Positions 120 to 20,276 of a DNA stretch of 23,865 nucleotides are shown in pieces. Source of the DNA: a virus. Location: the IMG/VR virus record IMGVR_UViG_3300011187_000308, positions 1-23,865 of that record, one strand, 5' to 3'. Each line of letters begins with the position of its first letter. Within the stretch, counting starts at the first letter, position 1. Below the pieces are notes generated by a model. The model was not told the origin of the DNA. It searched no databases and was given only the letters and a program-made list of their open reading frames with translations. A program made the position numbers and the translations under genes.

Positions 120-863
120 ATGAGAATAGCGATATCAGGAACAGCGGGACAAGGTAAATCTACACTGATTAAAACCTTCATCCATAAGTGGGATATGTAT
201 AGAACACCAGCCAAGACTTATAGAGATGTAATTAAGGAAAAGGAACTCCCACATTCAACCGAAACCACCACGGAAACTCAATTAATGATTTTGGATGCGA
301 TGACCAAGGCGCAAGAAAAACATAAAGACGAAGAGTTCCTTATTTATGATCGTTGTGCTTGGGATAATCTCGCGTATAGTTTGGAAGCTAATGAGAGAGA
401 TGAAATTGCTGATGAGGTCATGGCTGTTATAATCGATGTCGCCAAAGCTTCCTTCAAGAATATAGATATTATCTTTTGGTTAAAATACGATCCAGAAACT
501 CAGGTTGTTGATGATAGTCTTAGAGAAACAGATATCGAATATATCAAAAAAATCGATAGCATCTTCGAAGATCTTTATAAACAATTCTTGGATCATTTGG
601 GGGAAACACCATTTTATATTCCCGAAAATTGCCCCGCGATCATCCCCATCGAAGGTAAAACTCTCGACGATAGAGTGAACTGGGTCGGTGAGTTTGTGGA
701 TTCTCAAGGTAATTTAGTAACTACTGATAAAAGCATTCTCGATCCCGAAAACATCGAAATGATGGAACAGATGATCAAGGAACAAGAAGTCTGGACTGAT
801 AAAGACGCTGAGTATAATAAGGTGGTGGATAACATTAAAAATATAGACATCGATGCTAAGTAA
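120..863 (+). CDS. P-loop kinase-like NTPase
   Basis: A 247-residue cytoplasmic protein with a Walker A motif at the extreme N-terminus (GTAGQGKST, residues 7-15). A kinase-like segment LIYDRCAWDNLAY follows at 74-86; its Asp-Arg pair resembles the DR(S/T) of nucleoside and nucleotide kinases and of NadR/AAA_28-type P-loop proteins. An Arg-containing stretch at 131-146 (DDSLRETDIEYIKKID) could be the lid. A small-molecule kinase is the best guess, but the substrate is not evident. It is the first gene of the long plus-strand run and its 3' end overlaps the next gene by 11 bases, so it is probably co-transcribed with the glycosyltransferases. It might phosphorylate a nucleotide or a sugar precursor, or be unrelated to the glycan genes. 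The ATG at 120 puts the P-loop at the normal distance from the N-terminus. Confidence 0.6.
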   Translation: MRIAISGTAGQGKSTLIKTFIHKWDMYRTPAKTYRDVIKEKELPHSTETTTETQLMILDAMTKAQEKHKDEEFLIYDRCAWDNLAYSLEANERDEIADEVMAVIIDVAKASFKNIDIIFWLKYDPETQVVDDSLRETDIEYIKKIDSIFEDLYKQFLDHLGETPFYIPENCPAIIPIEGKTLDDRVNWVGEFVDSQGNLVTTDKSILDPENIEMMEQMIKEQEVWTDKDAEYNKVVDNIKNIDIDAK

Positions 864-1704
864 AATAGGAGTGGGTGTTGTTACATGTGGTAGAAAACAC
901 ATGTTTGAAAAATTATTCGAATCTATGATCCCCTCCAAGGGTGATATAGACCATTTGTGTATTGTCGAGGATACTATCCACGAGAATCCAACATATGATA
1001 ATTATATCAAGGAAGTAACTGAAGACAAATGGAAGGGTGATAATACTATGATGAATATCACCACAGATGAAAATATGGGTGTGGCGAAAGCTAAGAACCA
1101 AGCCTTTACTCATCTTTTGGAGAAGGGTTGTGACCATATTTTCATAATCGAGGAAGATATGTTGATCAAGAGAAAAGACATCTTCCACGCATATATCAAA
1201 GCTTCAGAGAAGAGTGGTATCGATCATATGATGTTCGCGTATCACGGTCCTGCCAACAAGAACGGTATATCTGGTGGTAAACCTTGTCCAAGATTGGTTC
1301 TAGATTATGGTGATTTTTCTCTTTCTTTGAATCAAAACTGTGTCGGAGCTTTCTGTTATTACACTAGAGAGAGCTTGGAAACGTGTGGTTTGATTGATGA
1401 AAAGTTTAAAAATGCGTTTGATCACGTTTCTCATAGTTATGATTTATATCTGAAAGGATTTTCCACACCCTATTGGTGGTGGACGGATCTAGCAAATTCC
1501 CTAGATTATATCGAAGAACAAGAATGTTCAGAGGACTCGTCTTCGATAAAAACACCCGAAAATTTAGATAAGTGGAGAAACAATATGAGAGCATCATACG
1601 AATACTTCAAGGAAAAATTCGGAGTATTCCCATTCGGTTCAGAGGGAGTTAAGGATACACCAGAAGATTTAGTGATCGAATTGATAAAGGATAGAAAACA
1701 ATGA
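853..1704 (+). CDS. GT2-like (GT-A fold) glycosyltransferase
   Basis: A 283-residue protein with the opening of a GT-A glycosyltransferase: a beta strand and nucleotide-binding segment IGVGVVTCGR (5-14), then NMGVAKAKNQAF (74-85), resembling the N.G...A.N segment of GT2 enzymes. An acidic IIEEDM motif at 98-103 takes the place of the metal-binding DXD. The expected role is transfer of a sugar from a nucleotide donor to a glycan or protein acceptor in the cytoplasm; donor and acceptor are unknown. An unusual aromatic run (YWWW) lies near residue 208 and may form part of an acceptor pocket. The start overlaps the kinase-like gene by 11 bases. No downstream Met preserves the first strand, so the ATG at 853 is kept. 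No membrane segment is visible. Confidence 0.7.
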   Translation: MLSKIGVGVVTCGRKHMFEKLFESMIPSKGDIDHLCIVEDTIHENPTYDNYIKEVTEDKWKGDNTMMNITTDENMGVAKAKNQAFTHLLEKGCDHIFIIEEDMLIKRKDIFHAYIKASEKSGIDHMMFAYHGPANKNGISGGKPCPRLVLDYGDFSLSLNQNCVGAFCYYTRESLETCGLIDEKFKNAFDHVSHSYDLYLKGFSTPYWWWTDLANSLDYIEEQECSEDSSSIKTPENLDKWRNNMRASYEYFKEKFGVFPFGSEGVKDTPEDLVIELIKDRKQ

Positions 1705-2519
1705 AAACAGATTTGAATGGTGTTGGATTAATGATCCATTTTAGGAGAGATATCGATGATCGTTTTCGTAATTTGAAAATGGTTGTCGATTTTTATCGTA
1801 AACATTCAGATAATCTTGAAATCGTCATCGTAAATGATGACTCGGAAATGGATAAAGATATCAAACAACTCTGTGATGATTACTCATGTAAGGGGTTATT
1901 CATGGAGAATACCGATATCTACTGGAGAACCAAGGCTTTCAACGAAGCAGCGAAGGTGATACAACATGTGGACTGTTTAATTGCTGGTGATACTGATGTT
2001 ATCGTGGATCCAGTCTTCATATTGGAAGCGAAGGGAATTTTCGAGAAGAATGAAGAGGTTGGTATCGTTTATCCATACAATGGGATGTTCATCCATCTGA
2101 AGCAGCCGATGTTTGAATTATTCACTCGAAATCAACTCCTAGTTGATCTATTGGAAAAATCTCAAACATTGAAACCGATTCCATACGATCAAGATGAAAA
2201 TTTCTTGGTGGCACATCCCCACAGTAAGGGTGGTATGGTGATGTTTAGAAAGACTGCATATTTCTCGACCAACGGATACAACCCCAATTTTAGGGGATGG
2301 GGCTACGAGGATGATGAAATTTTGGCCAGATTCCAGAAATTTGGATGGAACATATTAAGGGTTGAGAATAAGGACGCTATCGCGTGGCACTTACCTCATG
2401 AGAACACTGTCAGAGAGCAGCATCCCTATTACGGTAACAATAGGAAGCACTCCGACTTCGTCTGCGAGTCGCAAGATATAGAAGAACTCAAAAATTACGT
2501 CAAAACTTGGGAAATATAA
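1701..2519 (+). CDS. Glycosyltransferase with GT7/GalNAc-transferase-type C-terminal motif
   Basis: A 272-residue GT-A enzyme. IVIVNDDS at 41-48 is the end of the nucleotide-binding region, and GDTDVIVDP at 96-104 holds the DXD motif (D97, D99). The segment GGMVMFRK at 177-184 followed by GWGYEDDE at 199-206 is the hallmark of the Glyco_transf_7C domain, shared by beta-1,4-galactosyltransferases, polypeptide GalNAc-transferases and bacterial chondroitin polymerases. It probably adds Gal, GalNAc or a similar sugar; the exact donor cannot be read from sequence. The start shares an ATGA overlap with the upstream gene and the stop shares TAATG with the downstream gene, so all three are likely translated in a coupled way. 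Confidence 0.75.
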   Translation: MKTDLNGVGLMIHFRRDIDDRFRNLKMVVDFYRKHSDNLEIVIVNDDSEMDKDIKQLCDDYSCKGLFMENTDIYWRTKAFNEAAKVIQHVDCLIAGDTDVIVDPVFILEAKGIFEKNEEVGIVYPYNGMFIHLKQPMFELFTRNQLLVDLLEKSQTLKPIPYDQDENFLVAHPHSKGGMVMFRKTAYFSTNGYNPNFRGWGYEDDEILARFQKFGWNILRVENKDAIAWHLPHENTVREQHPYYGNNRKHSDFVCESQDIEELKNYVKTWEI

Positions 2520-3223
2520 TGGATCCTAAATTTTCTATATGCATCCCAACATGGGAGCAGGGCGGAGCGGGTAGGAGACACTTGGAGGATTTGATTCTTT
2601 CCATATACAAACAGACGTATAATAATTTTGAGTTAGTGATTTCGGATCACAGTAAAGACGATGAAATAGAAAAATATGTTTTATCTTTGAATTGTGATGT
2701 GAAATATAAGAGGAGTGATAGAAAATACGGCAACGGGGTTGCTAATTTGAATGATTCTCTGGATATGGCTGATGGAGATTTGATAAAAATAATGTTTCAG
2801 GATGATTTCATGTATTCAGAGCATTGTCTAGAATATATCGTGGAAAATTTCGATTCGGATGTGAAGTGGATGGTGTGTGGTTGCAACCATACTTTGGATG
2901 ATGGTGTATCATTTAATAGGTTTTTCACACCATCTTGGAGTGATGATATAATCGAGGGGAATAATACCATAAGCTCACCATCAGTATTGACTATACGTAA
3001 TGAAATCGTGGAACATTTTGATGAAAATTTGGTTGTAATGATGGATTGTGAATATTACTATCGTTTATATTTGAAATACGGAGCACCCAAAATTCTCAAC
3101 GAGTTTTTGATCACTAATAGACAACATCCACACCAAATATCCAATACTCACACATCAAACGAGGAGGATGAATTTTTGTATTTAAAAAAATTATACGGCC
3201 ATGATAGTAACAGAAATTTATAA
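2519..3223 (+). CDS. GT2 family glycosyltransferase
   Basis: A 234-residue GT2 protein starting FSICIPTWEQGG (residues 5-16), a classic first strand of the fold. A following strand FELVISDHSKDDE is at 37-49, an N-rich donor-site segment NGVANLNDS at 72-80, and the metal-binding QDD at 94-96. Length and motifs are normal for a compact GT2 catalytic domain without a membrane anchor. The open frame extends to a TTG at 2507, but the ATG at 2519 is preferred because it forms a TAATG overlap with the preceding stop, matching the coupled style of this operon. The 3' end overlaps the next gene by 23 bases. Donor and acceptor are unknown. Confidence 0.75.
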   Translation: MDPKFSICIPTWEQGGAGRRHLEDLILSIYKQTYNNFELVISDHSKDDEIEKYVLSLNCDVKYKRSDRKYGNGVANLNDSLDMADGDLIKIMFQDDFMYSEHCLEYIVENFDSDVKWMVCGCNHTLDDGVSFNRFFTPSWSDDIIEGNNTISSPSVLTIRNEIVEHFDENLVVMMDCEYYYRLYLKYGAPKILNEFLITNRQHPHQISNTHTSNEEDEFLYLKKLYGHDSNRNL

Positions 3224-4094
3224 TGGGCAGGGATTGGGAAACCAATTGGCTTGTTATGTCACCACCAGAGTAGTGGCGAAAGATTTGGGGTATGATTTCG
3301 GAGTCATGAACCCCCACAAATTCAAATGTTTGGATTTCATGGATCTGGATTTTGGGTTGGAAGTTACTGGTGGATCTGGGCGCGAGGGTGGTCCTCCCGA
3401 CACTCTACCAGATGGTATCGATCACTATTACAGAGAAAGATATAATATTTTACCCAACGGTGCAAATGTCACCATTGATGACCCCAAACTCCTAAAAATC
3501 CCCGACAACACGAAGGTTGATGGTATATTTCAATCTGAGAATCAGATATATCACCGTAAAGATGAGATTAAAAAGTGGTTAAGAATTAAACCTGAAAAAG
3601 AATTTTATGAATACTCTAACCCCAATATTTGTGTTATAAACTATAGGGGAGGTGAATATGCTAGTGTTCCCCAATTCCATTTGAGGAATGAATACTGGCG
3701 CGATGCCATCGCTAGAATGTTGGAAATTAACCCAAACTTTGAATTTGTGGTGGTGACTGATGATGTGGAGAGAGCTTTGGTGACTTTTCCAGATTTTAAA
3801 GTGTGTCATAACGGCATAGCAACAGACTTCTCGATCATCAAAAACGCTCATTATCTAATATTATCCAATTCAAGCTTTCCGTATTTTGCCACATTAATGA
3901 ATGAGAATGTGAAGTATATCCTAGCTCCAAAATATTGGGGAAGACATAATGTTTCAGATGGGTATTGGGCTTGTGGGTATAATATTTTTAGAAACCACAG
4001 TTATATTGATAGAGAAAATAATCTCTTTACATACGGACAATGTGTGAGAGAATTCATGGAATACCGACAACAAGACCCCGATTTTTGGAAATGA
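3201..4094 (+). CDS. GT11-like (alpha-1,2-fucosyltransferase family) glycosyltransferase, divergent
   Basis: A 297-residue GT-B fold protein. The N-terminal GQGLGNQLACYV (9-20) is the GT11 G.LGNQL signature. NYRGGEY at 147-153 corresponds to the HxRRGDY motif that contacts the GDP-sugar phosphates in GT11. LSNSSFPYFA at 221-230 corresponds to the SNSTFSWWA motif. These motifs are degenerate compared with the second GT11 gene in this window, at 7952, so donor or acceptor specificity probably differs. GDP-L-fucose is the usual donor of the family. No GDP-fucose synthesis genes are visible here, so the donor would have to come from the host or from elsewhere in the phage genome. The ATG at 3201 lies inside the end of the upstream GT2 gene. 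Confidence 0.65.
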   Translation: MIVTEIYNGQGLGNQLACYVTTRVVAKDLGYDFGVMNPHKFKCLDFMDLDFGLEVTGGSGREGGPPDTLPDGIDHYYRERYNILPNGANVTIDDPKLLKIPDNTKVDGIFQSENQIYHRKDEIKKWLRIKPEKEFYEYSNPNICVINYRGGEYASVPQFHLRNEYWRDAIARMLEINPNFEFVVVTDDVERALVTFPDFKVCHNGIATDFSIIKNAHYLILSNSSFPYFATLMNENVKYILAPKYWGRHNVSDGYWACGYNIFRNHSYIDRENNLFTYGQCVREFMEYRQQDPDFWK

Positions 4095-4879
4095 TTTACG
4101 ATATTTGTTCATTTAATAACGAGTTAGACATGCTGGATCTTCGTCTGAAGATTCTGAATGATCATGTTGATAAGTTTATAATAGTTGAGGCCAATACCAC
4201 ATTTAGCGGAGTAGAAAAACCTCTCAACTATCTCAACAATAGAGAGAGGTTCAAGGAATATGAAGATAAAATACTCTATTACACAGTTCCCGATTCCCCC
4301 ACATCCTTCGAAGATGATAAGTGTGATCAGGAAATTCTTCAGATGGCTCTGGATAGTGATAATGTCACGCGAGAGCATATTTGTTGGTTAGTGGAATTCT
4401 ATCAGAAGGAATACATTAAGAAAGTTTTGGGTGGTGTATTGGAAGACGATGACATTTGCTATGTCTGTGATTTGGATGAGATTTGGAACTACGATCTTAA
4501 CTTCGAAGTGGGTGATGATATACACAAACCAAAGATCAACAACTGCTATATCGATTACCTAAATCTAAAAACGAACGAAAACTGGACATTTTTCACAGGT
4601 CCTATCGTAACGAAGTATAAGAACATCAAAAACGAATGTCTGAATCATCTGAGAACCTTGCGAAAAATGCAAGATCGATACACCTACCACGAAGATGGTG
4701 GTTGGCATTTTAACGCATTGGGTGGATCCGATAAAAAAATCGAAGATTTCCAACACCCTGTGTATCATAAAGACTACATGGAAAAGAGAAAGCACGGTGC
4801 TAGGGTTGACGAAGCGGGACTACCCGAGTATATACTGGAACACAGAGAAGAACTCAAAGAGAAGGGACTATTTTTATGA
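4091..4879 (+). CDS. GT17-like glycosyltransferase (beta-1,4-GlcNAc-transferase family)
   Basis: A 262-residue protein resembling family GT17, whose eukaryotic member MGAT3 adds a bisecting GlcNAc and which also occurs in bacteria and viruses. Recognisable parts are MIYDICSFNNELDMLDLRL at the start, VDKFIIVEANTTFSG at 26-40, CDLDEIW at 126-132 as the DXD-like catalytic metal site, and GGWHFNALGG at 203-212. The frame is open upstream to 4040, but the ATG at 4091 is chosen because it makes an ATGA overlap with the preceding stop and puts the conserved first strand at the N-terminus. The 3' end makes another ATGA overlap with the methyltransferase. Donor sugar is inferred to be a UDP-sugar. Confidence 0.7.
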   Translation: MIYDICSFNNELDMLDLRLKILNDHVDKFIIVEANTTFSGVEKPLNYLNNRERFKEYEDKILYYTVPDSPTSFEDDKCDQEILQMALDSDNVTREHICWLVEFYQKEYIKKVLGGVLEDDDICYVCDLDEIWNYDLNFEVGDDIHKPKINNCYIDYLNLKTNENWTFFTGPIVTKYKNIKNECLNHLRTLRKMQDRYTYHEDGGWHFNALGGSDKKIEDFQHPVYHKDYMEKRKHGARVDEAGLPEYILEHREELKEKGLFL

Positions 4880-5469
4880 CAAGAACAGAAATTATTAATC
4901 ATTTGATAAAGAGGGGTGAATATAAAAGTTACCTCGAAATCGGGGTGAACACACCAGCACAACCGGGCTACAACTGGACTGGTGTTGAAGTTGAGACCAA
5001 ACACGGAGTGGATCCAAACGTGGATACCACATATAAAATGCCATCAGACGAATTTTTCGAAAGTCACATTTCCCAAAAATATGATATCGTTTTCGTGGAC
5101 GGATTACACCTCTTCGAACAAGCCCACAGAGATATCATCAATTCGTTGAAACATTTAAATGACGGTGGTATCATCGTTGCCCATGACTGTAATCCCGTTG
5201 AAGAGATCACTCAGAGAAGGGAGAGAGCATCGGACGCATGGCACGGTGATGTCTGGAAAGCTATCGTAAAGCTTAGAATTCAGAATCCAGAATTATCTGT
5301 CGTGACTGTCGAAGCTGACGAAGGTTGTGGTTTGATTTGGAGGGGTGGTCAACAATTATTGAATTTTGGTGCGGATGATGATCCTTACGAATACTCGTTC
5401 TTGGAGAAGAATCGAGTGGACGCTTTGAATCTAATAACACCAGATACATTCTTGAAAATGTTCCCGTGA
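4876..5469 (+). CDS. SAM-dependent class I methyltransferase (Methyltransf_24 type)
   Basis: A 197-residue Rossmann-fold methyltransferase. YLEIGV at 19-24 is the SAM-binding motif I. YDIVFVDGLHLFEQAHRDI at 69-87 is the strand 4 region typical of the Methyltransf_24 group, and GGIIVAHDCNP at 97-107 is the following strand, with His-Asp possibly binding a metal or acting as base. WHGDVWKA at 122-129 recurs in family members found in polysaccharide and sugar-modification clusters. Given its position between a GT17-like gene and a DUF3431-like gene, O- or N-methylation of a sugar is the likely role. Methylation of another small molecule cannot be excluded. Both ends are coupled: ATGA upstream, GTGA downstream. 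Confidence 0.75.
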   Translation: MTRTEIINHLIKRGEYKSYLEIGVNTPAQPGYNWTGVEVETKHGVDPNVDTTYKMPSDEFFESHISQKYDIVFVDGLHLFEQAHRDIINSLKHLNDGGIIVAHDCNPVEEITQRRERASDAWHGDVWKAIVKLRIQNPELSVVTVEADEGCGLIWRGGQQLLNFGADDDPYEYSFLEKNRVDALNLITPDTFLKMFP

Positions 5470-6203
5470 GTAAAATTATAAATAATAATTTCGTTGTAGT
5501 CAGTGACTATAATTGGTTGCCAGAGAATCTTGAAGATTCTTGGGTCGATAAGTGGTGTGATAATTACCTGATATATGATCGATATCACAGATTCCCAGAA
5601 TCTGATAAGGTAAAGCACCAGAAGAATGTTGGTCAGAATGTGTATGACATATTCCACTTTATTCTGGAAAATTACGACAATCTCCCAGATTCTACCCTAT
5701 TTTGCAGGGCTTGTTTAATGAACCCGAAGGATACGGGAACACCTAGTCACGATGAAAACGGTAGAGTGATATCCAACGGTAATTGCACTGAGGAATTCTT
5801 TTTAAGTGTCGCCAACAATACAACGTTCACGGAGATTCAAGACTTCACATCCGAACCATGGAGGATTAACAACACAGCCAATAAGATTGGGGAAGATAAC
5901 AGCTACATGGAGATCAATAACTCTTGGTATTTTGGTAAACACGCTGGAAAATATTACTCAAACATTAATGATTTCTTCAATGATATGTATGTGAATCCTG
6001 AGATACCGCAGTGGTTTAGATTCTCACCAGGTGTGAATTACATAATTCCCAAGGAATATATATTAAAATATTCCAAGAATTTCTACCAACGAATTCTTGA
6101 TATACTAGGGTGGGATGTTATTGTTGGCGAAGCTCATATGCTCGAAAGAGCGTTATACACAATTTTCCATAATGATTGGGAAGTTAAAGAAGAATTTAAA
6201 TGA
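5466..6203 (+). CDS. DUF3431-like protein, possible glycosyltransferase-related
   Basis: A 245-residue protein resembling the DUF3431 group found next to glycosyltransferases. The segment from about 54 to 80 starts NVGQNVYDIF and ends PDSTLFC, where family members read as a Gly-Arg-Glu helix followed by a Leu-Pro-Asp-Thr-Phe strand. RFSPGVNYIIPKEYI at 185-199 and GEAHMLERALYTIF at 221-234 match the conserved C-terminal part (a Phe-Ser-Pro-Gly loop and the Glu-Arg helix). The biochemical activity of the group is not established. The start is a GTG at 5466, overlapping the upstream stop as GTGA. The next gene starts in another ATGA overlap, so it belongs to the glycan operon. A transferase or sugar-binding role is an inference from context. 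Confidence 0.5.
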   Translation: MSKIINNNFVVVSDYNWLPENLEDSWVDKWCDNYLIYDRYHRFPESDKVKHQKNVGQNVYDIFHFILENYDNLPDSTLFCRACLMNPKDTGTPSHDENGRVISNGNCTEEFFLSVANNTTFTEIQDFTSEPWRINNTANKIGEDNSYMEINNSWYFGKHAGKYYSNINDFFNDMYVNPEIPQWFRFSPGVNYIIPKEYILKYSKNFYQRILDILGWDVIVGEAHMLERALYTIFHNDWEVKEEFK

Positions 6204-7141
6204 AGAATGAAAATATTTTTATAACAGGTGGTGCTGGATTTTTGGGACAGCATCTCATCGAGAGGTTACACGAAGACAACCACATCACCGTATATTCACG
6301 GGATGAGGCTAAACATTACTATCTCAAGAAGCAATACCCGAACGTAAAATTTGTGATCGGTGACGTTGGGGATAGGGATCATCTAGTCAGATCTAGTGAG
6401 GGTCACTCGCGTGGCATTTTTGCTGCATCGTTGAAGCAAATTGAGGCTTGTAATGATAATTACGAAGTCGCGGCCAAGACTATCATTGACGGAGCCATAA
6501 ACTCAAGAATAGCAGCAGAGGAAAATCGGTTCTTCTCTGCCTGTTTCATATCCTCAGATAAGAGTAGATCAGCGACCACCATCTATGGTGGTATGAAATA
6601 TGTTGCTGGTGAATGTTTTATCGCCAATGCGGAATCCAGTAAATACACCACACATCTAACTACTGCTATCTATGGCAATGTTATGAATTCCACTGGTTCG
6701 ATCATCCCCCTCATATGGAAATCGATTGAGAGTGATAGAGTCCTTACATTATATGACACGGAAATGACGAGATTTTTGTTGGATATTGACGATGCTGTGG
6801 ATGTAGTGATGTATTCTCTAAATCTCGGAAGGAGTGGGTGTAATGTAATCCCAAAACTGGATTCATTTAGAATCGTGGACATATTTGAGATCTACAAAAA
6901 GAAGTTTGGTCTTCGATATGAGATTGGATTTCCCAGAACAGGTGAAAAGGTTCACGAAATCCTTGCTTCGGAGGAAGAAATGAGGAGAATGGACACGAAA
7001 GATAATAAATACATGCTACTCCCCCCGAATGGGAACAATCAAGATTTCTATATTCCAGAGGATTATTCGTCCAGAGATCACACAATTCCCAAAGAATCAC
7101 TTGACAAATTCCTTGAAAAGAGAAATTACTACAAGCCATGA
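6200..7141 (+). CDS. Nucleotide-sugar 4,6-dehydratase, FlaA1/CapE type (extended SDR)
   Basis: A 313-residue extended short-chain dehydrogenase. TGGAGFLG at 9-16 is the NAD(P)-binding glycine motif, followed by GDVGDRD at 54-60. AASLKQIEACNDNYEV (75-90) matches the AALKQV..E..P.E segment of PseB/FlaA1/CapE enzymes. SSDKSRSATTIYGGMK at 118-133 carries Asp120, Lys121, Tyr129 and Lys133, with the spacing of the catalytic Asp132, Lys133, Tyr141 and Lys145 of Helicobacter FlaA1. EMTRF at 188-192 is also typical. Family members convert UDP-GlcNAc to a 4-keto-6-deoxy sugar, often with C5 inversion, and the DK pair separates this class from RmlB-type dehydratases. With the RmlD-type reductase immediately downstream, synthesis of a 2-acetamido-2,6-dideoxy sugar is the best prediction. 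Both junctions are ATGA overlaps. Confidence 0.75.
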   Translation: MKNENIFITGGAGFLGQHLIERLHEDNHITVYSRDEAKHYYLKKQYPNVKFVIGDVGDRDHLVRSSEGHSRGIFAASLKQIEACNDNYEVAAKTIIDGAINSRIAAEENRFFSACFISSDKSRSATTIYGGMKYVAGECFIANAESSKYTTHLTTAIYGNVMNSTGSIIPLIWKSIESDRVLTLYDTEMTRFLLDIDDAVDVVMYSLNLGRSGCNVIPKLDSFRIVDIFEIYKKKFGLRYEIGFPRTGEKVHEILASEEEMRRMDTKDNKYMLLPPNGNNQDFYIPEDYSSRDHTIPKESLDKFLEKRNYYKP

Positions 7142-7959
7142 GAATTATTATATTTGGAAGCAACGGTATGTTAGGCACATACCTCAGAAAACATTTCAGT
7201 CAGAAGTATGATGTGATGACCCTTACTAGGGAACATATCGACTTAAACAGTTCAAGGGATGATATATACGATTTTTTGAAAGGTATTGTCAACTCCGATG
7301 ATATTATAATCAATGCCGCTGGAGTCATTCATCAAAGAAATCCAGAACCAGAGGAGATGGTCAATGTGAATGGTGCGTTTCCCCACATTCTTCAAGATAT
7401 AAAAGAAGATGTTGAATGTGAGGTGTTCCATATCACCACAGATTGTGTATTCACTGGTCAACAAATTGAACCCGAAAATTCATTACTTTCGTATGATGAA
7501 AACTCACACCACGATGCTTTGGATATATATGGTAGGACTAAGTCACTCGGAGAAGCACCAAAACTGTCTACGATAAGAACGTCTATCATCGGTGAGGAGG
7601 TGAGTAACAAGCTCTCATTGCTCGAATGGGCGAAAAGTAAAAAGGGTGAAATAGCCTTTGGGTATGTTGATCATTTGTGGAATGGTGTGACTTGTCACGA
7701 GTTGTGTCTATTAATTGACAATATGATATCCGACAATTTTTATTGGGAAGGTGTGAGACACTTCCATTCACCAGAATATGTGAATAAATTCTCCCTTTTA
7801 AATATTATTTCCGATGTTTATGGGCTGAATATACAAACAAAACCCACCACAAAGGGGAGTTGTTCCCGAGTGTTGAAATCCATACACAATGAGTATAGGG
7901 TAATGAAGAGCATTGAACAACAAATAAAGGAATTGAAAGAAATTAACATATATGAGTAA
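7138..7959 (+). CDS. RmlD-type nucleotide-sugar 4-ketoreductase
   Basis: A 273-residue SDR protein of the RmlD (dTDP-4-dehydrorhamnose reductase) family. GSNGMLG at 7-13 binds the dinucleotide. INAAGVIHQ at 58-66 and the N.N...P stretch (VNVNGAFP, 75-82) follow. ITTDCVFTG at 99-107 and YGRTK at 131-135 carry the Thr, Tyr and Lys of the active site. It would reduce the 4-keto group of the sugar made by the upstream dehydratase. A FlaA1/CapE-type dehydratase with an RmlD-type reductase recalls the WbvB/WbvR steps of UDP-L-RhaNAc and UDP-L-QuiNAc synthesis. In those pathways a C2 epimerase may follow, and none is visible here. The start overlaps the upstream stop as ATGA and the end overlaps the GT11 start by eight bases. 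Confidence 0.75.
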   Translation: MRIIIFGSNGMLGTYLRKHFSQKYDVMTLTREHIDLNSSRDDIYDFLKGIVNSDDIIINAAGVIHQRNPEPEEMVNVNGAFPHILQDIKEDVECEVFHITTDCVFTGQQIEPENSLLSYDENSHHDALDIYGRTKSLGEAPKLSTIRTSIIGEEVSNKLSLLEWAKSKKGEIAFGYVDHLWNGVTCHELCLLIDNMISDNFYWEGVRHFHSPEYVNKFSLLNIISDVYGLNIQTKPTTKGSCSRVLKSIHNEYRVMKSIEQQIKELKEINIYE

Positions 7960-8716
7960 ATGTTATGTAAAGGTTTGTGGGGGTCTGGGTAATCAACTCT
8001 TTCAGATCGCCAATGGATATGCATATTCAAAACGTTTCGATAAGGAATTGGTTATAGATTGTTCCACATGGAACGCATCGCAAGGGACGAATATCAAGGT
8101 TTATAAAGATACATTATTCAAGAATTTCCACTTCGGTGTGAAAGATGAACCGCTAACCTTAATAAGGGAAAGGGATAAGCAGAAGGAACAGGTAACAATT
8201 TATAATGAAATACCTAATGTGGATGGCTCTGTTTTGTTGGATGGTTATTTTCAGTCTTTGAAATACTTCGAAGATTATAAAGACGAGTTTATTTCTCTTC
8301 TTGAGTTGCCAGAAATAGATAGCGATAAGATAGAACACCCCAGCGTTGGTATGCATGTGAGGAGAGGTGATTATCTCTTATATAGGAATATATATCACTC
8401 TTGTGATACTGAGTATTTCGCATCGTTCTTTGATGTGTATAAAGATACCCATAAAATTTACATATACACCGATTCTCCCGAACACATATTGGAAGAGTTC
8501 GCGGATTTTGATTTTCAACTGGTTAGATCAGATTCAGAGTTAAAGGATTTCACCTCTCTTTCCAAGCACCAACAAATAATTGGAAGTAACTCCACATTTT
8601 CGTGGTGGGCTTCGTTGGTTGGTAATCCAGAAAAAGCGGTATTCCCATCTAAGTGGTATGTCGATAGACCACACGAGGATATTTTTAGAGAGGATATGAT
8701 ATTGAAAGATGTTTAA
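7952..8716 (+). CDS. GT11 alpha-1,2-fucosyltransferase-like protein
   Basis: A 254-residue GT11 protein with textbook motifs. GGLGNQLFQIANGYA at 10-24 is the N-terminal signature. HVRRGDY at 135-141 is the basic motif that contacts GDP-fucose. SNSTFSWWA at 212-220 is the C-terminal signature, preceded by a DFTSLSKHQQIIG stretch. It is compact compared with the roughly 290-300 residues common in bacterial family members. The predicted reaction is transfer of L-fucose (or a related 6-deoxy sugar) from a GDP-sugar onto a hexose. It is the better-conserved of two GT11-type genes here; the other is at 3201. The preceding gene's stop lies inside its first codons (ATGAGTAA) and its 3' end overlaps the next small gene by eight bases. 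Confidence 0.8.
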   Translation: MSKCYVKVCGGLGNQLFQIANGYAYSKRFDKELVIDCSTWNASQGTNIKVYKDTLFKNFHFGVKDEPLTLIRERDKQKEQVTIYNEIPNVDGSVLLDGYFQSLKYFEDYKDEFISLLELPEIDSDKIEHPSVGMHVRRGDYLLYRNIYHSCDTEYFASFFDVYKDTHKIYIYTDSPEHILEEFADFDFQLVRSDSELKDFTSLSKHQQIIGSNSTFSWWASLVGNPEKAVFPSKWYVDRPHEDIFREDMILKDV

Positions 8717-8972
8717 AAGTATAAATCATATGCTTTTCGAGGATAAGAAAGAAATAACCAATGAGTTAATTTCTGAGTTTTCCCCATATATGACAACAAG
8801 ATATTTGAGTTTTTATGATAAAGATCTCCTCAAATACGCGAACGACACATTGAATGTGTATGGTAATCTTTTCGATACAGAGGAGGAGACATTTAAATTT
8901 TATAAAAACGTGATCCCCAAATTGAAGATAAAAAAGATAAATTATATATCAAAAACGAAAAAAGATGGCTGA
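8709..8972 (+). CDS. Probable DNA polymerase clamp-loader small subunit (gp62/clamp_A type)
   Basis: An 87-residue protein with no glycan-enzyme features. It resembles the short clamp-loader A subunits of non-enteric T4-like phages: an N-terminal FKSIN segment (2-6), then SPYMTTRYLSFY at 25-36, YANDTLN at 43-49, and a basic C-terminal FYKNVIPKLKIKKINYI at 64-80. In family members the corresponding parts read roughly as a PF..NR.LS segment, a YANEMN segment and a basic tail. In T4, gp62 with gp44 loads the gp45 clamp, which is needed for replication and late transcription. The similarity is recalled by eye and the sequence is divergent, so an unrelated small protein remains possible. It overlaps both neighbours by eight bases, so it is read with the glycan operon. 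Confidence 0.5.
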   Translation: MFKSINHMLFEDKKEITNELISEFSPYMTTRYLSFYDKDLLKYANDTLNVYGNLFDTEEETFKFYKNVIPKLKIKKINYISKTKKDG

Positions 8973-9540
8973 ACACGCTTTTATACATATACCGAAAAAC
9001 GCTGGTTCATCATTTCGTGATGCGTTACAGAATACCCCCCAAATAAAATATTTTGGACATGATGTGATGAAGCGCAACGTGAGGACACTCAAAAAAATAT
9101 TCATTCTAAGAGAACCGATAGATCGATTTACATCAGCCTTTTTTTATGCAAAAAATCATTTACATGAAGATTATCATAGAGATATCATGTTCAATAACCC
9201 CAATGAATTATTGGAAGGTATTATAAATTTTAATATGATTGCTTACAGATTCTTTGAAAATATGAAATATAATCACCACGTCGATGGAGTGAGGATTCAT
9301 ATTGATTGGGTATTTGAAAAGCAGTGTAAATGGTTTCATGACCCTTGGAAGGTTATTCTTTATGATAAGCTTGATGAGGGGATCGATGACTTGAATGATA
9401 CATTGAACATAAACATCGAACTACCACACCGCAACAAGTCGAAGAAGAAAGAGTTTGAATATTCAGAAGAAAGTATCAATCTTTTGAATATTTTATATAA
9501 AGAAGATTTTGAACTTTATGAGCAATATACAAGAAGATAA
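8965..9540 (+). CDS. PAPS-dependent sulfotransferase (Sulfotransfer_2-like)
   Basis: A 191-residue sulfotransferase. FIHIPKNAGSSFRDAL at 6-21 is the 5'-phosphosulfate-binding loop, with the catalytic-type Lys11 and the Ser15-Ser16 pair. FILREPIDRFTSAFFY at 46-61 is the 3'-phosphate-binding motif with Arg49 and Ser57. The IPKNAGSS form and LREP.DR pattern are characteristic of the carbohydrate sulfotransferases that modify heparan and chondroitin and their bacterial relatives. It would transfer sulfate from PAPS to a hydroxyl on the glycan built by neighbouring genes. No PAPS synthesis genes are visible, so the donor would come from the host. It is somewhat short for the family, leaving little beyond the core. 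Its start overlaps the clamp-loader-like gene by eight bases. Confidence 0.8.
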   Translation: MAEHAFIHIPKNAGSSFRDALQNTPQIKYFGHDVMKRNVRTLKKIFILREPIDRFTSAFFYAKNHLHEDYHRDIMFNNPNELLEGIINFNMIAYRFFENMKYNHHVDGVRIHIDWVFEKQCKWFHDPWKVILYDKLDEGIDDLNDTLNINIELPHRNKSKKKEFEYSEESINLLNILYKEDFELYEQYTRR

Positions 9541-10324
9541 AAAATGCTTAGTGGCTGTCCCCACATTCATGCGTCCCCAGTTCTTACCTAGAATATTGGC
9601 TTGTTTTGAAAGGTTAGCTTATAGTAATAAGAGACTGGTCATTATAAATGATGACCATGATACTAGATATTTTTATGGGGGTAAAAATCCTCATATAGAG
9701 GTGGTCAATATAGATAAGCAAATTCAACTATCAGTTAAAAGAAATGTGTTGGCATCGTGGGATTTCGATATATTATTTCCTCTGGATGATGATGACCTAT
9801 TTTTACCCAATAGATTAATCAATCATGTTCGAAAATATAAGAAGCATCCAGACATAGACCTTTATAGAAATAGAGCCAAGTATACACTCGCGGGTGGGAG
9901 AGTGAAAGTCAGTGATGGTAATGATATGTTTCACAATACCTCCTTCACAAGAGAAGGGTTCTTCAAGGCTGGTGGTTACACGGGATTCGACCAATCCAAC
10001 CAAGATGATATGTCACTACAGAGAAATTTTAAACATAATTGTAATCTAAAAATAGAAGACGATTTCGAAAATATCGATTTTTATTACGATTTCGATGGTT
10101 GGAGATACCACAATACTGGTAATGGAGACGAATACATTTCCGAAGAGTTTTTGAAATTAAGTCAAAGACAGAGGACACAAAAGGGTGACATAACACTCAT
10201 GCCAGATTATGACAATTATGATAACATACATCGCATATGTTTGATGGCTAAAGATATGGAGGATGGATTATCCGTAAACGTGGATCCAGATAATAGGGCT
10301 AATATTATCACATTAGATACTTGA
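9518..10324 (+). CDS. GT2-like glycosyltransferase, last gene of the glycan operon
   Basis: A 268-residue GT-A protein. CLVAVPTFMRPQFLPRIL at 10-27 is the first strand and helix. RLVIINDDH at 39-47 is the second strand. KRNVLAS at 74-80 and FPLDDDDLF at 87-95 form the donor site, with the metal-binding acidic cluster D90-D93. NHVRKYK and the later GGYTGF stretch fit GT2 architecture. The open frame reaches back to a TTG at 9509, but the ATG at 9518 is preferred and still overlaps the sulfotransferase gene by 23 bases. It closes the plus-strand operon: a gap of 29 bases follows, then a separate late-type promoter and the co-chaperonin. Donor and acceptor are unknown. Confidence 0.7.
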   Translation: MSNIQEDKKCLVAVPTFMRPQFLPRILACFERLAYSNKRLVIINDDHDTRYFYGGKNPHIEVVNIDKQIQLSVKRNVLASWDFDILFPLDDDDLFLPNRLINHVRKYKKHPDIDLYRNRAKYTLAGGRVKVSDGNDMFHNTSFTREGFFKAGGYTGFDQSNQDDMSLQRNFKHNCNLKIEDDFENIDFYYDFDGWRYHNTGNGDEYISEEFLKLSQRQRTQKGDITLMPDYDNYDNIHRICLMAKDMEDGLSVNVDPDNRANIITLDT

Positions 10325-10353: not shown

Positions 10354-10776
10354 ATGGCAAAAGACATTGATATTTTAGCGACTCAGAAATCACACATCGA
10401 TTTATCAGATAACGCGCTCCCCACTGATTTTGGTCTAGATGATTACAAACTTTCGAAGCTTTTCGATGATGTAATGTTGATTGAGTTTTGCGATTTAATC
10501 GAAGATGAGGAGGGTGGTGAGTTTATTGAACGTGGTGGAATCATTATCCCAGTCACACAAATCCAGAATGCGTGGAGAAAGGGTGAAGTGATTTTAAAAG
10601 GACCGAACGTCAAATTGGCTGAAGTTGGTGATATTGTGGTGTTCCCTAAAAATATGGGTATCCCAATCGCTAACGTGGAGGTCACTGACCATGGAAAAGT
10701 GAAGAACGGATTGTTCTTGAATGAACAGAGAATGTTTGGAATTTGTGAAGTAAATGAGAAAACTGAGGAGAAGTGA
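10354..10776 (+). CDS. GroES-like co-chaperonin, phage gp31-type
   Basis: A 140-residue GroES-fold protein. The core begins FDDVMLIEF at 37-45. An acidic flexible segment, DLIEDEEGGEFIERGGIIIP at 47-66, matches the GroEL-binding mobile loop ending in the hydrophobic Gly-Ile-Ile-Ile-Pro tip. GEVILKGPNV at 77-86 and VGDIVVFPKN at 91-100 are standard GroES strands, and MFGICEV closes the barrel. The N-terminal extension of about 35 residues is longer than in bacterial GroES. T4 gp31 replaces GroES on the host GroEL chamber to fold the major capsid protein, and phages of this type often carry such a protein. It is preceded by its own late-type box, separate from the glycan operon, and the next gene overlaps its end by 23 bases. 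Confidence 0.8.
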   Translation: MAKDIDILATQKSHIDLSDNALPTDFGLDDYKLSKLFDDVMLIEFCDLIEDEEGGEFIERGGIIIPVTQIQNAWRKGEVILKGPNVKLAEVGDIVVFPKNMGIPIANVEVTDHGKVKNGLFLNEQRMFGICEVNEKTEEK

Positions 10777-11718: not shown

Positions 11719-13341
11719 ATGAATGATTTAATATTAAACTTTCCAGAGGGGTTTGAGCCGAGGAGCAAACAAACCAAAGCACTTAAAGCAATTGAAACCG
11801 CTTTCCAAAAGGGGAAGAAGTTTGTGATTGTCCATGCTGATACGGGTGTCGGTAAGACGCACCTAGCCAAAACATTAGGAAATGTCTGTGATGATGTTCC
11901 CGATGAATATAAGAAAATCGTTGATAATTATAGGATTTTTTCCGATCAGGGAGCCGATTTAGCCGACGAATTCGATCCGTTTGGTTGCTACGCATTAACC
12001 ATCACCAAGTCTCTCCAAGACCAATACGAGAACGTATTCAACGACACTGGTGTTATGAAAGGTAAGTCCAATTACCAATGCCAAGTCGATGATAGCTTGA
12101 CTGTAGATGTCGCACCCTGTATCTATCTTAAAAGCATGAAGAACGACTGTTGGAAATCCAACACCTGCCATTATTACAATGCTAGGAACAATATGTTGAA
12201 ATCCAAATTCTCAGCGTTGAATTATAGTATGTTCTTCTCTCTTCCCGAACACTTGAAAAAGAGACAAGTTTTGGTCTGTGATGAAGGATCTGAGTTGGAG
12301 GAGCAATTGGTTGGGCAGTTCACATGTGAGGTGGATATAACATTCCTAATGAAGACAAAGACCTTGATTTCCTCCTTTCCGAACGAAAACAAGAAGAGTA
12401 AGATATTGTCGTGGATCGGTAATCTGATTGGTAATGTCGAAGAAAACCTACTAAACTACGAGGGGTGGTTTAGTAAGAACCCCACCAATAAAAACCCTGT
12501 CAAATTCAACAAGAAGAAGGGAGAGTATACTAGATTAACCAATCTAAAGAATTCTCTCGGTGTGTTAATGGAGACGTATTATGACAGTGAATACATCGTC
12601 GAACGACTCGATCAGAAGATTAGATTCATTCCTTTGAAGGTTGATGTTCTCTCGAAACATCTCTTCGATTGTGCAGAAAAGGTGGTTATCTTATCCGCAA
12701 CCATCATTGATTCGAAGTCGTATTGTGATTCTTTGGGTATCGATAATTATGAATATATTCACGTTGGGACAGATTTTGATCCCAAAAATGCTCCGATACA
12801 CATCATGGCAAAACAGAAATTAAATTATTCAAATTTGAAAAGTATGTTACCAAAATTGGTGGAACAAATCGAAGGAATTATGGAGCACCACTCCGACCAC
12901 AAGGGCATTATACATACCCACACCCAATATATTACTGATTACATAAGAGATAATATAGACTCTGATCGATTATTGTGTAGAGAGGCTGGTGTCCGAAACG
13001 AGGATCTATTAAAAATACACGAGGAGTCAGATGAACCAACCATCCTAGTATCTCCGTCCATGACTTATGGGGTTGATTTATACGATGATCTTGGTAGATT
13101 TCAGATAATACTCAAAGCACCATGGTTACCGACTAAAGATGTTCGCGTGGAAAAAATGATGAAAATTGATAAGATGTGGTATGTGAATTCCATGTTGAAG
13201 ACATTAGTCCAAGCTTCTGGTAGGATTATTCGATCCAAAGACGATAAGGGTGAGACTTATATACTTGACGGTGCGATTTATGATGCTATAAGTAGGAACA
13301 AGAAGAAATTACCAACCTTTTTCTTAGAAAGATTTAACTAA
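11719..13341 (+). CDS. DinG/XPD-type superfamily 2 helicase with iron-sulfur cysteines
   Basis: A 540-residue ATP-dependent helicase. A Q-motif-like RSKQTKAL lies at 15-22 and Walker A HADTGVGKTH at 39-48. Four cysteines, C121, C134, C144 and C150, sit between motif I and motif II, as in the 4Fe-4S domain of XPD and DinG. Walker B reads VLVCDEGSE (184-192), so the usual DEAH box is DEGS. Motif III is LSAT at 325-328, motif V SPSMTYGVDL at 445-454 and motif VI QASGRIIRSKDDKG at 498-511. Family members unwind 5'-overhang DNA, R-loops and forks, so a role in phage replication, recombination or R-loop removal is likely. It is shorter than bacterial DinG (about 700 residues). The AAA+ gene follows with a one-base TAATG overlap, suggesting linked functions. 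Confidence 0.8.
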   Translation: MNDLILNFPEGFEPRSKQTKALKAIETAFQKGKKFVIVHADTGVGKTHLAKTLGNVCDDVPDEYKKIVDNYRIFSDQGADLADEFDPFGCYALTITKSLQDQYENVFNDTGVMKGKSNYQCQVDDSLTVDVAPCIYLKSMKNDCWKSNTCHYYNARNNMLKSKFSALNYSMFFSLPEHLKKRQVLVCDEGSELEEQLVGQFTCEVDITFLMKTKTLISSFPNENKKSKILSWIGNLIGNVEENLLNYEGWFSKNPTNKNPVKFNKKKGEYTRLTNLKNSLGVLMETYYDSEYIVERLDQKIRFIPLKVDVLSKHLFDCAEKVVILSATIIDSKSYCDSLGIDNYEYIHVGTDFDPKNAPIHIMAKQKLNYSNLKSMLPKLVEQIEGIMEHHSDHKGIIHTHTQYITDYIRDNIDSDRLLCREAGVRNEDLLKIHEESDEPTILVSPSMTYGVDLYDDLGRFQIILKAPWLPTKDVRVEKMMKIDKMWYVNSMLKTLVQASGRIIRSKDDKGETYILDGAIYDAISRNKKKLPTFFLERFN

Positions 13342-15644: not shown

Positions 15645-17450
15645 ATGGCAGGGACAGGAAGCTCAACGACACCATCCACTAATAGTCACTCACCAAGCAG
15701 TGACGGTAGGGGTGCTACTTACGATAGAAATATGCAGTCTTATTTGAAGAATAAGGGTGATTTCACCGTGACCCAGCCAGAGGAGGCTAAGAACACAAAA
15801 TACAAATACTTCCAGAAGGTTGGAATGCGTAGACCCGAAGCTATTGCAAAGAATTCGGTGGCTCTCAATAACGACTGGAATAATACAGCGTTTTCTGCCA
15901 TTTATCAGGATAAATCATTCACTGATATGATGTATGCTACCGCTTCCGAGGAGAAACCAGGAAGGCTACGAGACTACAGAACCATAGCATCCTTCTCAGA
16001 AGTCGCAGACGCTCTAGACGAGATATGTGATGAGACTATTAACGTCGATGAAAATGGTGACATTGCAACTCTTACATTCAGGAATACCGATCTTGAAAGT
16101 GATAAAAAAGAAGAAATAGAAAAAGAATTCAATAGATTCGTCTCACTTCTTGAACTAGAAGAAAACGGTTGGAACTACTTTAGACAATTTTTAATTGAAG
16201 GTGAATTGTATTTTGAGTTGATCCTAAAGGAAGAATATATCCACCAAGGAGTTGTTGCCATAAAGAACCTTCCAGCGGATCAGTTCGATCCAGTTTACGA
16301 CAACATCCAAAACATGATCATCAAGGGTTATCTATATAAGAAGCCCATTTTTTCGTCAGTCGATAATAAAAAAGTAGAGAGATTTGATTATATACCCTTT
16401 GAAAAGAGTCAGGTTCTTTATGTGAATAGTGGTGGATTTAATGAAACCAAAGACTTCATTATACCATTCATCGAAAACTGTAGACGAGCATATCGTCAAC
16501 TTTCACTGATCGAGGATTCTGTCGTTATCCATAGAATGGTTCACGCCCCTCTCAGATTCCTTTTCAACGTTGATGTTGGTAGACTACCCGTTCCTCAAGC
16601 AGAATCTTATCTCAGAAAGCTTCAAGCACAATACTGGTCAACCAAGACCTTCGACATGGATCAAGGCGACATTGTTAAGAAATACGCTCCACAATCCACT
16701 CTTGATAGTTTCTGGTTCGCCAAAAGACAAGGACAAGAACCTACCACAGTAGACACCTTTGGTGGACAACCAGAAACTGGTGGTATGGAAATTCTCGATT
16801 GGTTCATCCGTAAACTTTATCGCTCCCTCAAGACACCAGTTTCTAGACTCAACGAAGAAACTGGCTACAATGATGGAACCGAGATGTTGCGCGAAGAATT
16901 GAAATTTGCTAAAATGGTGATTCGCCAACAACAAAGTTTCGCGTCTGGTATCAAAAAGGCGTTTATTACTCACCTCAAGTTCAGAGAACTCTGGGATGAT
17001 AACGACCTTTTCGATGAGAATATCCGTGTGGAATTTAACGTTCCTACGAATTTCTACGACATGAGAGAGAGTCAAAAGCTTAATCTCAAAATCGAAACCT
17101 TTAATAATATTTCCACAAATGAAGAAATATCAACTACCTTTGCGATGAAAAAATATCTGAACTGGAAAGATATGGACATCCTAGCCAACAGAGCATTCCT
17201 CAGAAATGATGCGGAGTTAGCATTCGAAATTGAGCAGATACGGACAAATGGTCCGGGTTGGAAATCAGCCTTAGTAGACGCTGAGGCTGGTGCTGAAGAA
17301 GGTGATATGGGCGATCTAGGTGGTGGTGGTGGTGGTGGCGGTGGTGGAATGCCACCAGACTTCAGTGGTGGGGGAGCCGCAGTAGATGGTGGAGAGGCTG
17401 ATCTAGGCGTAGAAGAACCAGCACCAGAAGCAGAAGCACCAATCGAATAA
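15645..17450 (+). CDS. Portal vertex protein (T4 gp20-like)
   Basis: A 601-residue portal protein. The N-terminal 45 residues are Ser/Thr/Gly-rich and probably disordered. The core includes FSEVADALDEICDE (117-130), an acidic helix 150-170, and IPFIENCRRAYRQLSLIEDS at 273-292. VIHRMVHAPLRFLFNVDVGR (294-313) and PQAESYLRKLQAQYW (317-331) follow. The latter segments correspond to T4 gp20 around its MEDALVIYRLVRAPERR and IDVGN..R..AEQY motifs. ILDWFIRKLYRSLKTPVSRL and the TEMLREELKF helix further on also fit. The portal dodecamer is the DNA entry channel and head-tail connector. The C-terminal 50 residues, with a ten-Gly run and an acidic, Ala/Pro/Glu-rich end, exceed the T4 protein (524 residues) and look unstructured. 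The stop lies two bases from the stop of the convergent PAS-protein gene. Confidence 0.85.
   Translation: MAGTGSSTTPSTNSHSPSSDGRGATYDRNMQSYLKNKGDFTVTQPEEAKNTKYKYFQKVGMRRPEAIAKNSVALNNDWNNTAFSAIYQDKSFTDMMYATASEEKPGRLRDYRTIASFSEVADALDEICDETINVDENGDIATLTFRNTDLESDKKEEIEKEFNRFVSLLELEENGWNYFRQFLIEGELYFELILKEEYIHQGVVAIKNLPADQFDPVYDNIQNMIIKGYLYKKPIFSSVDNKKVERFDYIPFEKSQVLYVNSGGFNETKDFIIPFIENCRRAYRQLSLIEDSVVIHRMVHAPLRFLFNVDVGRLPVPQAESYLRKLQAQYWSTKTFDMDQGDIVKKYAPQSTLDSFWFAKRQGQEPTTVDTFGGQPETGGMEILDWFIRKLYRSLKTPVSRLNEETGYNDGTEMLREELKFAKMVIRQQQSFASGIKKAFITHLKFRELWDDNDLFDENIRVEFNVPTNFYDMRESQKLNLKIETFNNISTNEEISTTFAMKKYLNWKDMDILANRAFLRNDAELAFEIEQIRTNGPGWKSALVDAEAGAEEGDMGDLGGGGGGGGGGMPPDFSGGGAAVDGGEADLGVEEPAPEAEAPIE
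17319..17348 (+). repeat. GGN trinucleotide tract encoding ten glycines
   Basis: Ten consecutive glycine codons, mostly GGT, near the 3' end of the portal gene. Such a tract can vary in length by slippage in multiples of three. It encodes part of a probably flexible C-terminal tail. Confidence 0.8.
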
Positions 17451-18267: not shown

Positions 18268-18567
18268 TCAACAGAATGAGACACAATTAAATGCTGAACT
18301 ATAATAAAATGCTGTTCCATTATTGGCACTTAAAGTCCAATCCGAATCGGTGGGTCTTTCACATTCATAGAAATATTCATCAGTGCCATTATTAGCTGAT
18401 GGGTGTATATATGTGTTATCCTGCCCCCATAGGATATATTCATTGGAAGATATACGATAGTAAGTAGTCCCGTTATTTGTTTCGGGAGCATCGGGAAAGG
18501 TGGATATTGATTCCACACCACAAGATATCGGATGATACTGTGTTCCATTATTCGATTCAAAGGCCAT
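18268..18567 (-). CDS. Small NNGT-repeat protein
   Basis: A 99-residue protein with the tetrapeptide NNGT at 6-9, 31-34, 59-62 and 82-85 (spacing 25, 28 and 23 residues). Each is followed by an aromatic-rich strand (QYHPIS, TYYRIS, DEYFYE, AFYYSS). The periodic Asn-Asn-Gly turn plus aromatic strand suggests a small repeated beta structure. Four cysteines (16, 69, 95, 99) could form disulfides or bind metal. There is no signal peptide or membrane segment. The gene is accepted because the repeats are coherent only in this frame and a late-type box lies five bases before its ATG. Position among virion genes suggests a minor decoration or host-contact protein, which is inference. No family is recognised. 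Confidence 0.65.
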   Translation of the reverse strand: MAFESNNGTQYHPISCGVESISTFPDAPETNNGTTYYRISSNEYILWGQDNTYIHPSANNGTDEYFYECERPTDSDWTLSANNGTAFYYSSAFNCVSFC

Positions 18568-19740: not shown

Positions 19741-20256
19741 ATGGATATATCGATACCAGAGTTTGAAAGAGGAATACACTTCAAAGAGCAATCTCCCGAT
19801 GAGGGTGGTGACAAATATCGATATAAAACCAAAAAATCCACGATAGTTTGTTGGAGTGGGTTTTTATATGGTGATAAAAAGATATCCTTCGTGGATAAAA
19901 ATGGTAAAGAATGGCTTTACATAGACGCGAAACGCTTCATTATCGCTAAAAATTATGCTTGGGATGGTGCTTCCCCGAAAAAACATATACCTATTTTTGG
20001 ATGGGTGGGAACCCCTGATACGGAAAATACCATATTGGGAACTTTAATTCATGATGCGTTTGCTCAATTCATGACAACTGAACATTTCCCCTTTGGTCAA
20101 TCTACCAATAATAAAATATTCCGACACGTTTTAAAAAAAGAAGGCTTCCCAATGCCCCTATATTGGTTGTATTATGGGGGTGTGGCACTATACGATCTCG
20201 TTAGTGATCCGATGGATTATGGCGGGACCAAATCTATTATCTTGACAAATAAGTGA
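19741..20256 (+). CDS. DUF1353-family phage protein
   Basis: A 171-residue protein with the DUF1353 core. An N-terminal beta region is followed by NYAWDGASPK at 71-80, then TPDTENTILGTLIHDAFAQF at 91-110 with a conserved His-Asp (104-105). A C-terminal part, FGQSTNNKIFRHVLKKEGF (118-136), ends in a hydrophobic YWLYYGGVALY at 141-151. DUF1353 proteins are widespread in tailed phages, often near tail or lysis genes, and their biochemical function is not established. The hydrophobic end could contact a membrane. It begins two bases after the neck gene and has no late-type box of its own, so it is probably read from the neck promoter. Confidence 0.75.
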   Translation: MDISIPEFERGIHFKEQSPDEGGDKYRYKTKKSTIVCWSGFLYGDKKISFVDKNGKEWLYIDAKRFIIAKNYAWDGASPKKHIPIFGWVGTPDTENTILGTLIHDAFAQFMTTEHFPFGQSTNNKIFRHVLKKEGFPMPLYWLYYGGVALYDLVSDPMDYGGTKSIILTNK

Positions 20257-20263
20257 CATATGG

Positions 20264-20271
20264 TATAAATA
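20264..20271 (+). promoter_or_regulatory. Perfect T4 late promoter consensus
   Basis: TATAAATA is an exact match to the T4 late consensus and the only perfect one listed in this window. It is five bases before the ATG at 20277, which would make the start-codon A the transcription start under T4 geometry. Confidence 0.75.
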
Positions 20272-20276
20272 TATAT

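Follow-up and report, generated by a model that had tools for sequence, protein, structure and literature searches.

What does a T4-like phage make with an island of coupled sugar genes, and to what would it attach the product? The locus that raises this question lies at 853-10324 of IMG/VR record IMGVR_UViG_3300011187_000308. The window, meaning the whole stretch that we analysed, is the entire record, a linear fragment of 23,865 bases from an uncultured T4-like phage, with a uniform G+C content of 0.35-0.43. The island consists of 13 open reading frames (ORFs), all on the + strand with successive overlaps of 4-55 nt, encoding seven glycosyltransferases (GTs), a DUF3431 protein, a PseB/FnlA-like dehydratase, an RmlD-like reductase, a methyltransferase, and a sulfotransferase. 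Because contigs of 154-207 kb repeat these genes in an unchanged order, the island is not a chance assembly. We propose that it may specify a cytosolic pathway for adding glycans to virion proteins during infection, a reading that we hold to be evenly poised between right and wrong. The genes are as follows.

853..1704 (+), g1, GT-A-type glycosyltransferase with an EEDM motif (phrog_2456, 1e-21)
1701..2519 (+), g2, GT7C-type (beta-1,4-galactosyltransferase-like) glycosyltransferase (PF02709, 4e-14)
2507..3223 (+), g3, GT2 glycosyltransferase (PF00535, 2e-12)
3201..4094 (+), g4, GT11-like glycosyltransferase, GT11a (PF01531, 6e-4; phrog_2644, 5e-14)
4040..4879 (+), g5, GT17 glycosyltransferase (PF04724, 4e-21)
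4876..5469 (+), g6, class I methyltransferase, presumed to act in sugar O-methylation (PF13578, Methyltransf_24, 2e-10)
5466..6203 (+), g7, DUF3431 protein, probable GT-A glycosyltransferase (PF11913, 2.5e-6)
6200..7141 (+), g8, UDP-GlcNAc 4,6-dehydratase/5-epimerase-like short-chain dehydrogenase/reductase, Y129-x3-K133 (PF02719, Polysacc_synt_2, 3e-44)
7138..7959 (+), g9, RmlD-like reductase, 273 aa (PF04321, RmlD, 3e-15)
7952..8716 (+), g10, GT11 glycosyltransferase, GT11b (PF01531, 4e-13; phrog_2644, 7e-28)
8709..8972 (+), g11, 87-aa ORF outside the glycan pathway, present in 18/18 slots
8965..9540 (+), g12, 3'-phosphoadenosine 5'-phosphosulfate (PAPS)-type sulfotransferase, rare accessory gene (PF03567, Sulfotransfer_2, 6e-6; phrog_3347, 9e-12)
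9509..10324 (+), g13, GT2 glycosyltransferase, accessory (PF00535, 3e-7)

All thirteen coupled genes described in the initial annotation were present. That annotation had read them as a phage-encoded pathway for a modified, complex oligosaccharide, and family content, gene order, and conservation agree with such a pathway, for a branched product, with sulfation suggested by family and motif. Its count of seven GTs was borne out by Pfam and PHROG matches, and its two nucleotide-sugar enzymes, methyltransferase, and sulfotransferase all matched the families listed. Twelve of the genes fit a glycan set; the other, g11, belongs to a conserved backbone.

Predicted sugar supply, transfer, and capping

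A PDB search gave 4tqg as the closest solved structure to g8 (3e-41). This structure is Megavirus Mg534, a 4,6-dehydratase and 5-epimerase with a YxxxK motif. Its partner Mg535 comes next, an RmlD-like protein of 270 aa that acts as 3-epimerase/4-reductase and has a conserved Cys; the product of the pair is UDP-L-RhaNAc, and the pathway serves the Megavirus fibril glycans (PMC9614988). At the sequence level the island has the same arrangement, with a YxxxK dehydratase adjoining an RmlD-like protein that carries a Cys. This residue, Cys103 of g9 (in TTDC), is invariant across 11 aligned sequences and is of the type that, in Mg535 and GDP-fucose synthase, is tied to epimerisation at C3. Like Mg534/Mg535, g8 and g9 would convert UDP-GlcNAc to a UDP-2-acetamido-2,6-dideoxy-L-hexose (UDP-L-RhaNAc-like). 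A pseudaminic acid pathway was considered and rejected, as g8 scored 177 bits against a PseB cut-off of 408 and none of the 13 island genes encodes an aminotransferase.

The likely user of this sugar is g7, which usually adjoins g8/g9. It is the most conserved gene of the island, at 86-90% identity in close relatives and 54-61% in distant T4-like phages, where g8 is kept at 61-63%. An AF2 model of g7 (pLDDT 70) had C1GalT1 (GT31) as its top Foldseek match at E 0.016, with none at E<=0.001, and the top rows in VIA were mostly GT-A enzymes and nucleotidyltransferases (Z up to 6.9). These comparisons suggest that g7 is probably an eighth GT, of the GT-A type.

Further residues would be attached by g1-g5, g10, and g13. 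The only glycan gene kept in 17/18 related slots is g1, a candidate for the conserved core transferase; its AlphaFold model was too poor to use (pLDDT 51). There was a weak match between g2 and beta4GalT1 structures (E 3e-4), and g4 is 41% identical to Synechococcus phage proteins. GT11 enzymes usually use GDP-fucose, and since no gene for GDP-fucose synthesis lies in the window, the host would supply it. The glycan may then be capped with methyl and sulfate groups by g6 and g12, drawing on S-adenosylmethionine and PAPS from the host. The motifs IPKNAGSS and REPIDRFTSA of g12, read by eye, correspond to the 5'- and 3'-phosphate motifs of a PAPS site and point to sulfation as its putative reaction. 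Homologues of g12 occurred only at L082, L203/L223, and L204 among the related loci searched, and none in the phage collection reached E 1e-5. PDB sequence searches for g5, g10, and g12 and with a DUF3431 alignment gave no usable match.

A slot with fixed borders and exchanged cassettes

We identified 99 loci by portal and dehydratase scans. The following features of the window place the island in its genome.

120..863 (+), P-loop nucleotide-kinase-like gene, AAA_28/dNK (Pfam, 4e-14), left slot border, not a glycan gene
10354..10776 (+), Cpn10/GroES-like (T4 gp31-like) co-chaperonin gene (phrog_3188, 1e-5), right slot border, kept in 18 slots
11719..13341 (+), DNA helicase (phrog_2488, 1e-91), conserved right flank
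15645..17450 (+), T4-type portal protein (PF07230, 1e-84), which assigns the phage to the T4-like group
21123..23444 (+), long coiled-coil fibre-like protein

The island keeps its order between the kinase-like and co-chaperonin genes in relatives G1 (177,639 bases), G2 (207,489), and G3 (154,167). The kinase-like gene is 55-57% identical in close relatives and 34-38% in G8/G9, whose portals are 51-53% identical and which carry other sugar genes between the same borders. Distant T4-like phages (G6, G7, L092, and L093) still keep g3, g7-g8-g9, g4, and g5 together, even though G6 has only 21% portal and 30% capsid protein identity, and a 642-kb uncultured phage carries g3-g7-g4-g5. Because such distant phages keep these genes together, the cassette looks horizontally mobile.

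Sampling through the conserved helicase flank yielded 18 slots, which we clustered into 97 gene families, or 81 after removal of those found only in G1/G2; 61 occurred in a single phage. The near-universal slot genes were only g11 (18/18) and g1. The g11 gene accompanies the co-chaperonin gene in phages without the remaining island genes, and since these two persist where the others are replaced, g11 is part of the backbone. The other slots contain GTs, epimerases, and methyl-, pyruvyl-, and cytidylyltransferases, with 42 further families that include GT2, GT7C, GT10, GT6, FkbM methyltransferases, a pyruvyl transferase, LicD, and a cytidylyltransferase. By its gene content, the locus is a swap hotspot where one sugar cassette replaces another between fixed borders. 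Cassette exchange of this kind is known for bacterial O-antigen loci, and related phages would likewise display different glycans. The two relatives with different slot cassettes also have CsgG (curli secretion) genes (G008 60573-61220 and G009 9407-10063), which were not found in G001-G003; CsgG genes have been published for pelagimyophages.

Elsewhere in the window, a 99-aa ORF (18268-18567, -) between the portal and neck genes has four NNGT repeats (N-x-T sequons) and is found in the same place in relatives at 57-61% identity. A 273-aa ORF (20253-21074) has an N-terminal hydrophobic segment resembling a signal peptide; it had no Pfam match and was absent from the relatives compared. Promoter-like sites in the window did not exceed shuffles in number, terminator-like sites numbered 9 against a shuffle mean of 6.3 (sd 2.4), and no clear pattern emerged from a scan for the T4 late-promoter motif. 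The window portal shared no more than 28-29% identity with those of phage records in the collection, and a near-identity search of phage records found no near-identical record. We dropped host inference through cultured phages at this portal identity and about 33% for the capsid protein of relative G2. No psbA was found in the relatives searched.

Candidate acceptors of the glycan

The initial annotation had left the acceptor open among virion protein, phage DNA, and host surface. The evidence leans to virion protein, to which the oligosaccharide would be attached directly, without settling the matter. One line of evidence is position. In G1/G2 the island is interrupted between g9 and g10 by a block of genes for fibre, head closure, protease, scaffold, and capsid (gp23). 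In G3/G5 this block comes after the portal, and the coiled-coil fibre-like gene there is followed by the genes for head closure, the protease, the scaffold, and the major capsid protein; by analogy the block is expected to the right of the window. The co-chaperonin gene is always at the slot border. In G001 (29391-43014) and G002 (102779-112983), the island holds the capsid module together with two opposite-strand homing-endonuclease-like genes, an arrangement rearranged relative to G3/G5.

The second line comes from the fibre module of relatives. Beside Mtd_N proteins, the island-bearing G1, G2, G3, and G010 have a gene for a Thr/Ser/Pro-repeat protein 158-215 aa long, and a GT2 gene (PF00535, 2.5e-8), whose product has a conserved DxH motif, follows it after 8-11 bp. 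This mucin-like protein, with a GT2 of its own, is the most specific acceptor candidate. Mucin-like genes, each directly upstream of a GT2 gene, lie at the following places in uncultured phages.

L121 (G002), 6952-7437 (-), mucin-like gene
L136 (G003), 4540-5187 (+), mucin-like gene
L247, 3088-3621 (+), mucin-like gene
Loci L264-L343, mucin-like genes

A scan for the mucin-linked GT2 gave 430 relatives, and we used the best 80 loci, 56 of them non-redundant, counting the ORF just upstream as mucin-like if Ser/Thr made up at least 50% of a stretch of 30 residues. This was so in 48/56 loci, compared with 15/233 other same-strand ORFs of at least 100 aa, a background drawn from the same loci and not a random sample. 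Most of the mucin-like proteins end in a conserved, Cys-containing tail of the C..C[NK]xLx[FY] type. In eight mucin-like genes that we checked, the Thr runs mix codons, with identical-codon runs of at most 3, which argues for selection at the protein level over simple DNA repeats. None of 50,697 phage records matched the mucin-linked GT2, which occurred in 12/13 relatives of more than 120 kb (G001-G004, G008, and G010-G017) and was missing from G011. We suspected a GT27 GalNAc-transferase from the DxH motif, an identity for which a PDB sequence search and NCBIfam gave no support. From these observations we tentatively suggest a self-contained phage system of mucin-type O-glycosylation, in which the mucin-like protein, as a putative virion component, would be primed by the adjacent GT2 and extended by products of the exchangeable island to give sugar-coat serotypes; we think this possible, with the balance somewhat against it.

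Several points weigh against virion glycosylation. The mucin-like gene was found only in relatives and not in the window, and it is distant from the island. Although G8 has a glycan slot, its GT2 homologue is not preceded by a mucin-like protein, and G011 has a slot without such a GT2; with these exceptions we rejected a strict link between slot and mucin-like protein, and their co-occurrence may reflect common descent. A bacterial locus of the O-antigen type, which includes multi-pass membrane genes, contains homologues of g4, g7, and g5, so the synthesis of surface polysaccharides is a natural setting for these enzymes, and the authors of the pelagimyophage study favour host O-antigen modification (PMC7029224). 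Within the virion, the sugars might instead go to capsid or head-fibre proteins rather than to the mucin-like protein. The capsid module inside or beside the island would suit this, as would a small Ser/Thr-rich protein (150 aa) that follows the capsid gene, and glycosylation of mycobacteriophage capsids and tails is known (Freeman 2023, as cited in PMC12619734). We consider this narrower version improbable, since no capsid feature was shown to covary with cassette type and the adjacency may reflect a plastic region.

The last two points against virion glycosylation bear on the host envelope, where phage GTs would extend the lipopolysaccharide (LPS) core or lipid-linked O-antigen precursors, with the host exporting the product and receptors being hidden from competitors or from released progeny. 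Such a role has been put forward for pelagimyophage GT genes (PMC7029224), and the GT families are typical of LPS loci. The initial annotation had reported no initiating membrane transferase, flippase, or polymerase, and none was found in the large relatives either. Among 12 relatives of 122-212 kb, whose contigs are linear and may be incomplete, neither the Wzx flippase (PF01943; controls matched in 13/14) nor the initiating sugar-phosphate transferase (PF02397; control matched in 10/14 genomes) was detected. No ORF with more than four hydrophobic segments occurred in G1, G2, G3, G5, G6, G7, G8, or G9; the same scan found 13- and 9-segment proteins in the bacterial locus L100, the positive control. 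The absence stands, yet the annotation's argument from it against an exported polysaccharide holds only in part: host LPS core or host-flipped precursors could still be extended, because such GTs are cytosolic and the host flips the precursors itself. What counts against the host envelope is the lack of any membrane or lipid-carrier enzyme in the 12 relatives, the linkage of the island to capsid genes, the mucin-like protein with its own GT, and the expense, for a lytic phage, of about 10 kb on a short-lived change. On balance we judge the host envelope unlikely, though a serious competitor.

Phage DNA is a far weaker candidate acceptor. Sugars would be built there on a hypermodified base; T4 glycosylates its DNA, and virus GTs can build glycans on DNA according to work cited in PMC12619734. 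The nucleotide-kinase-like gene at the slot border and a sub-threshold match of g1 to a TET-associated GT (E 0.05) would be compatible with this. However, a thymidylate-synthase-fold hydroxymethylase (PF00303) was found in 0/8 records, including G001-G003, with controls matched in 9; Tet_JBP gave no match, but neither did its positive control. We regard DNA glycosylation as very improbable.

If virion glycosylation is correct, T4-like phages of aquatic habitats make their surface glycans themselves and vary them much as bacteria vary O-antigens, without export machinery. It would give bacterial viruses a counterpart to the fibril glycans of giant viruses and would provide a source of cytosolic, possibly mucin-directed glycosylation enzymes. 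Why such phages carry many GTs, for a particle coat or for a host-surface change, would become testable.

Comparison with known systems

Glycan islands in T4-like phages are already known, and the slot exchange and the mucin-GT pairing look new; a partial literature search turned up no published case of a mucin-like protein coupled to a GT in a phage. Core GTs have been noted in moraphages (PMC12619734), and pelagimyophage host recognition clusters are rich in GTs, with modification of the host O-chain proposed (PMC7029224). The pelagimyophage/cyanomyophage clusters and those of Synechococcus phages S-B43, RN05-S, and RB11-B likewise belong to T4-like phages and, close to fibre genes, contain numerous GTs and genes for sugar nucleotides, with no export genes annotated. 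The three Synechococcus phages share the g4-g5 pair and g3 homologues with the island. Their sugar clusters (L102 of S-B43, 12738-26181, L101, and L104) span about 14 kb or more, and that of S-B43 directly adjoins tail fibre genes. These clusters differ in having a GDP-mannose dehydratase, an aminotransferase, and epimerases and in occupying another genome position, and unlike the island they gave no PseB-like, DUF3431, or sulfotransferase match.

The bacterial O-antigen-type locus is that of an Elusimicrobiales metagenome-assembled genome (L100, 8958-13500), in which homologues of g4 (52%), g5, and g7 lie together; its multi-pass membrane proteins have no counterpart in the phage island. The Megavirus/Moumouvirus fibril clusters (Mg534-Mg539; PMC9614988) share the dehydratase/5-epimerase and the Cys-bearing RmlD-like enzyme, have GTs of their own and, in relatives, sulfate metabolism, and place virus-encoded glycans on the particle. 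They belong to eukaryotic giant viruses, differ in cassette composition, and make glycans that are proven, whereas those of the island are predicted. In mycobacteriophages, phage GTs modify virion proteins (Freeman et al. 2023, as cited in PMC12619734); few GTs are involved there, going by that citation, whereas the island would bring a whole biosynthetic pathway within an exchangeable locus.

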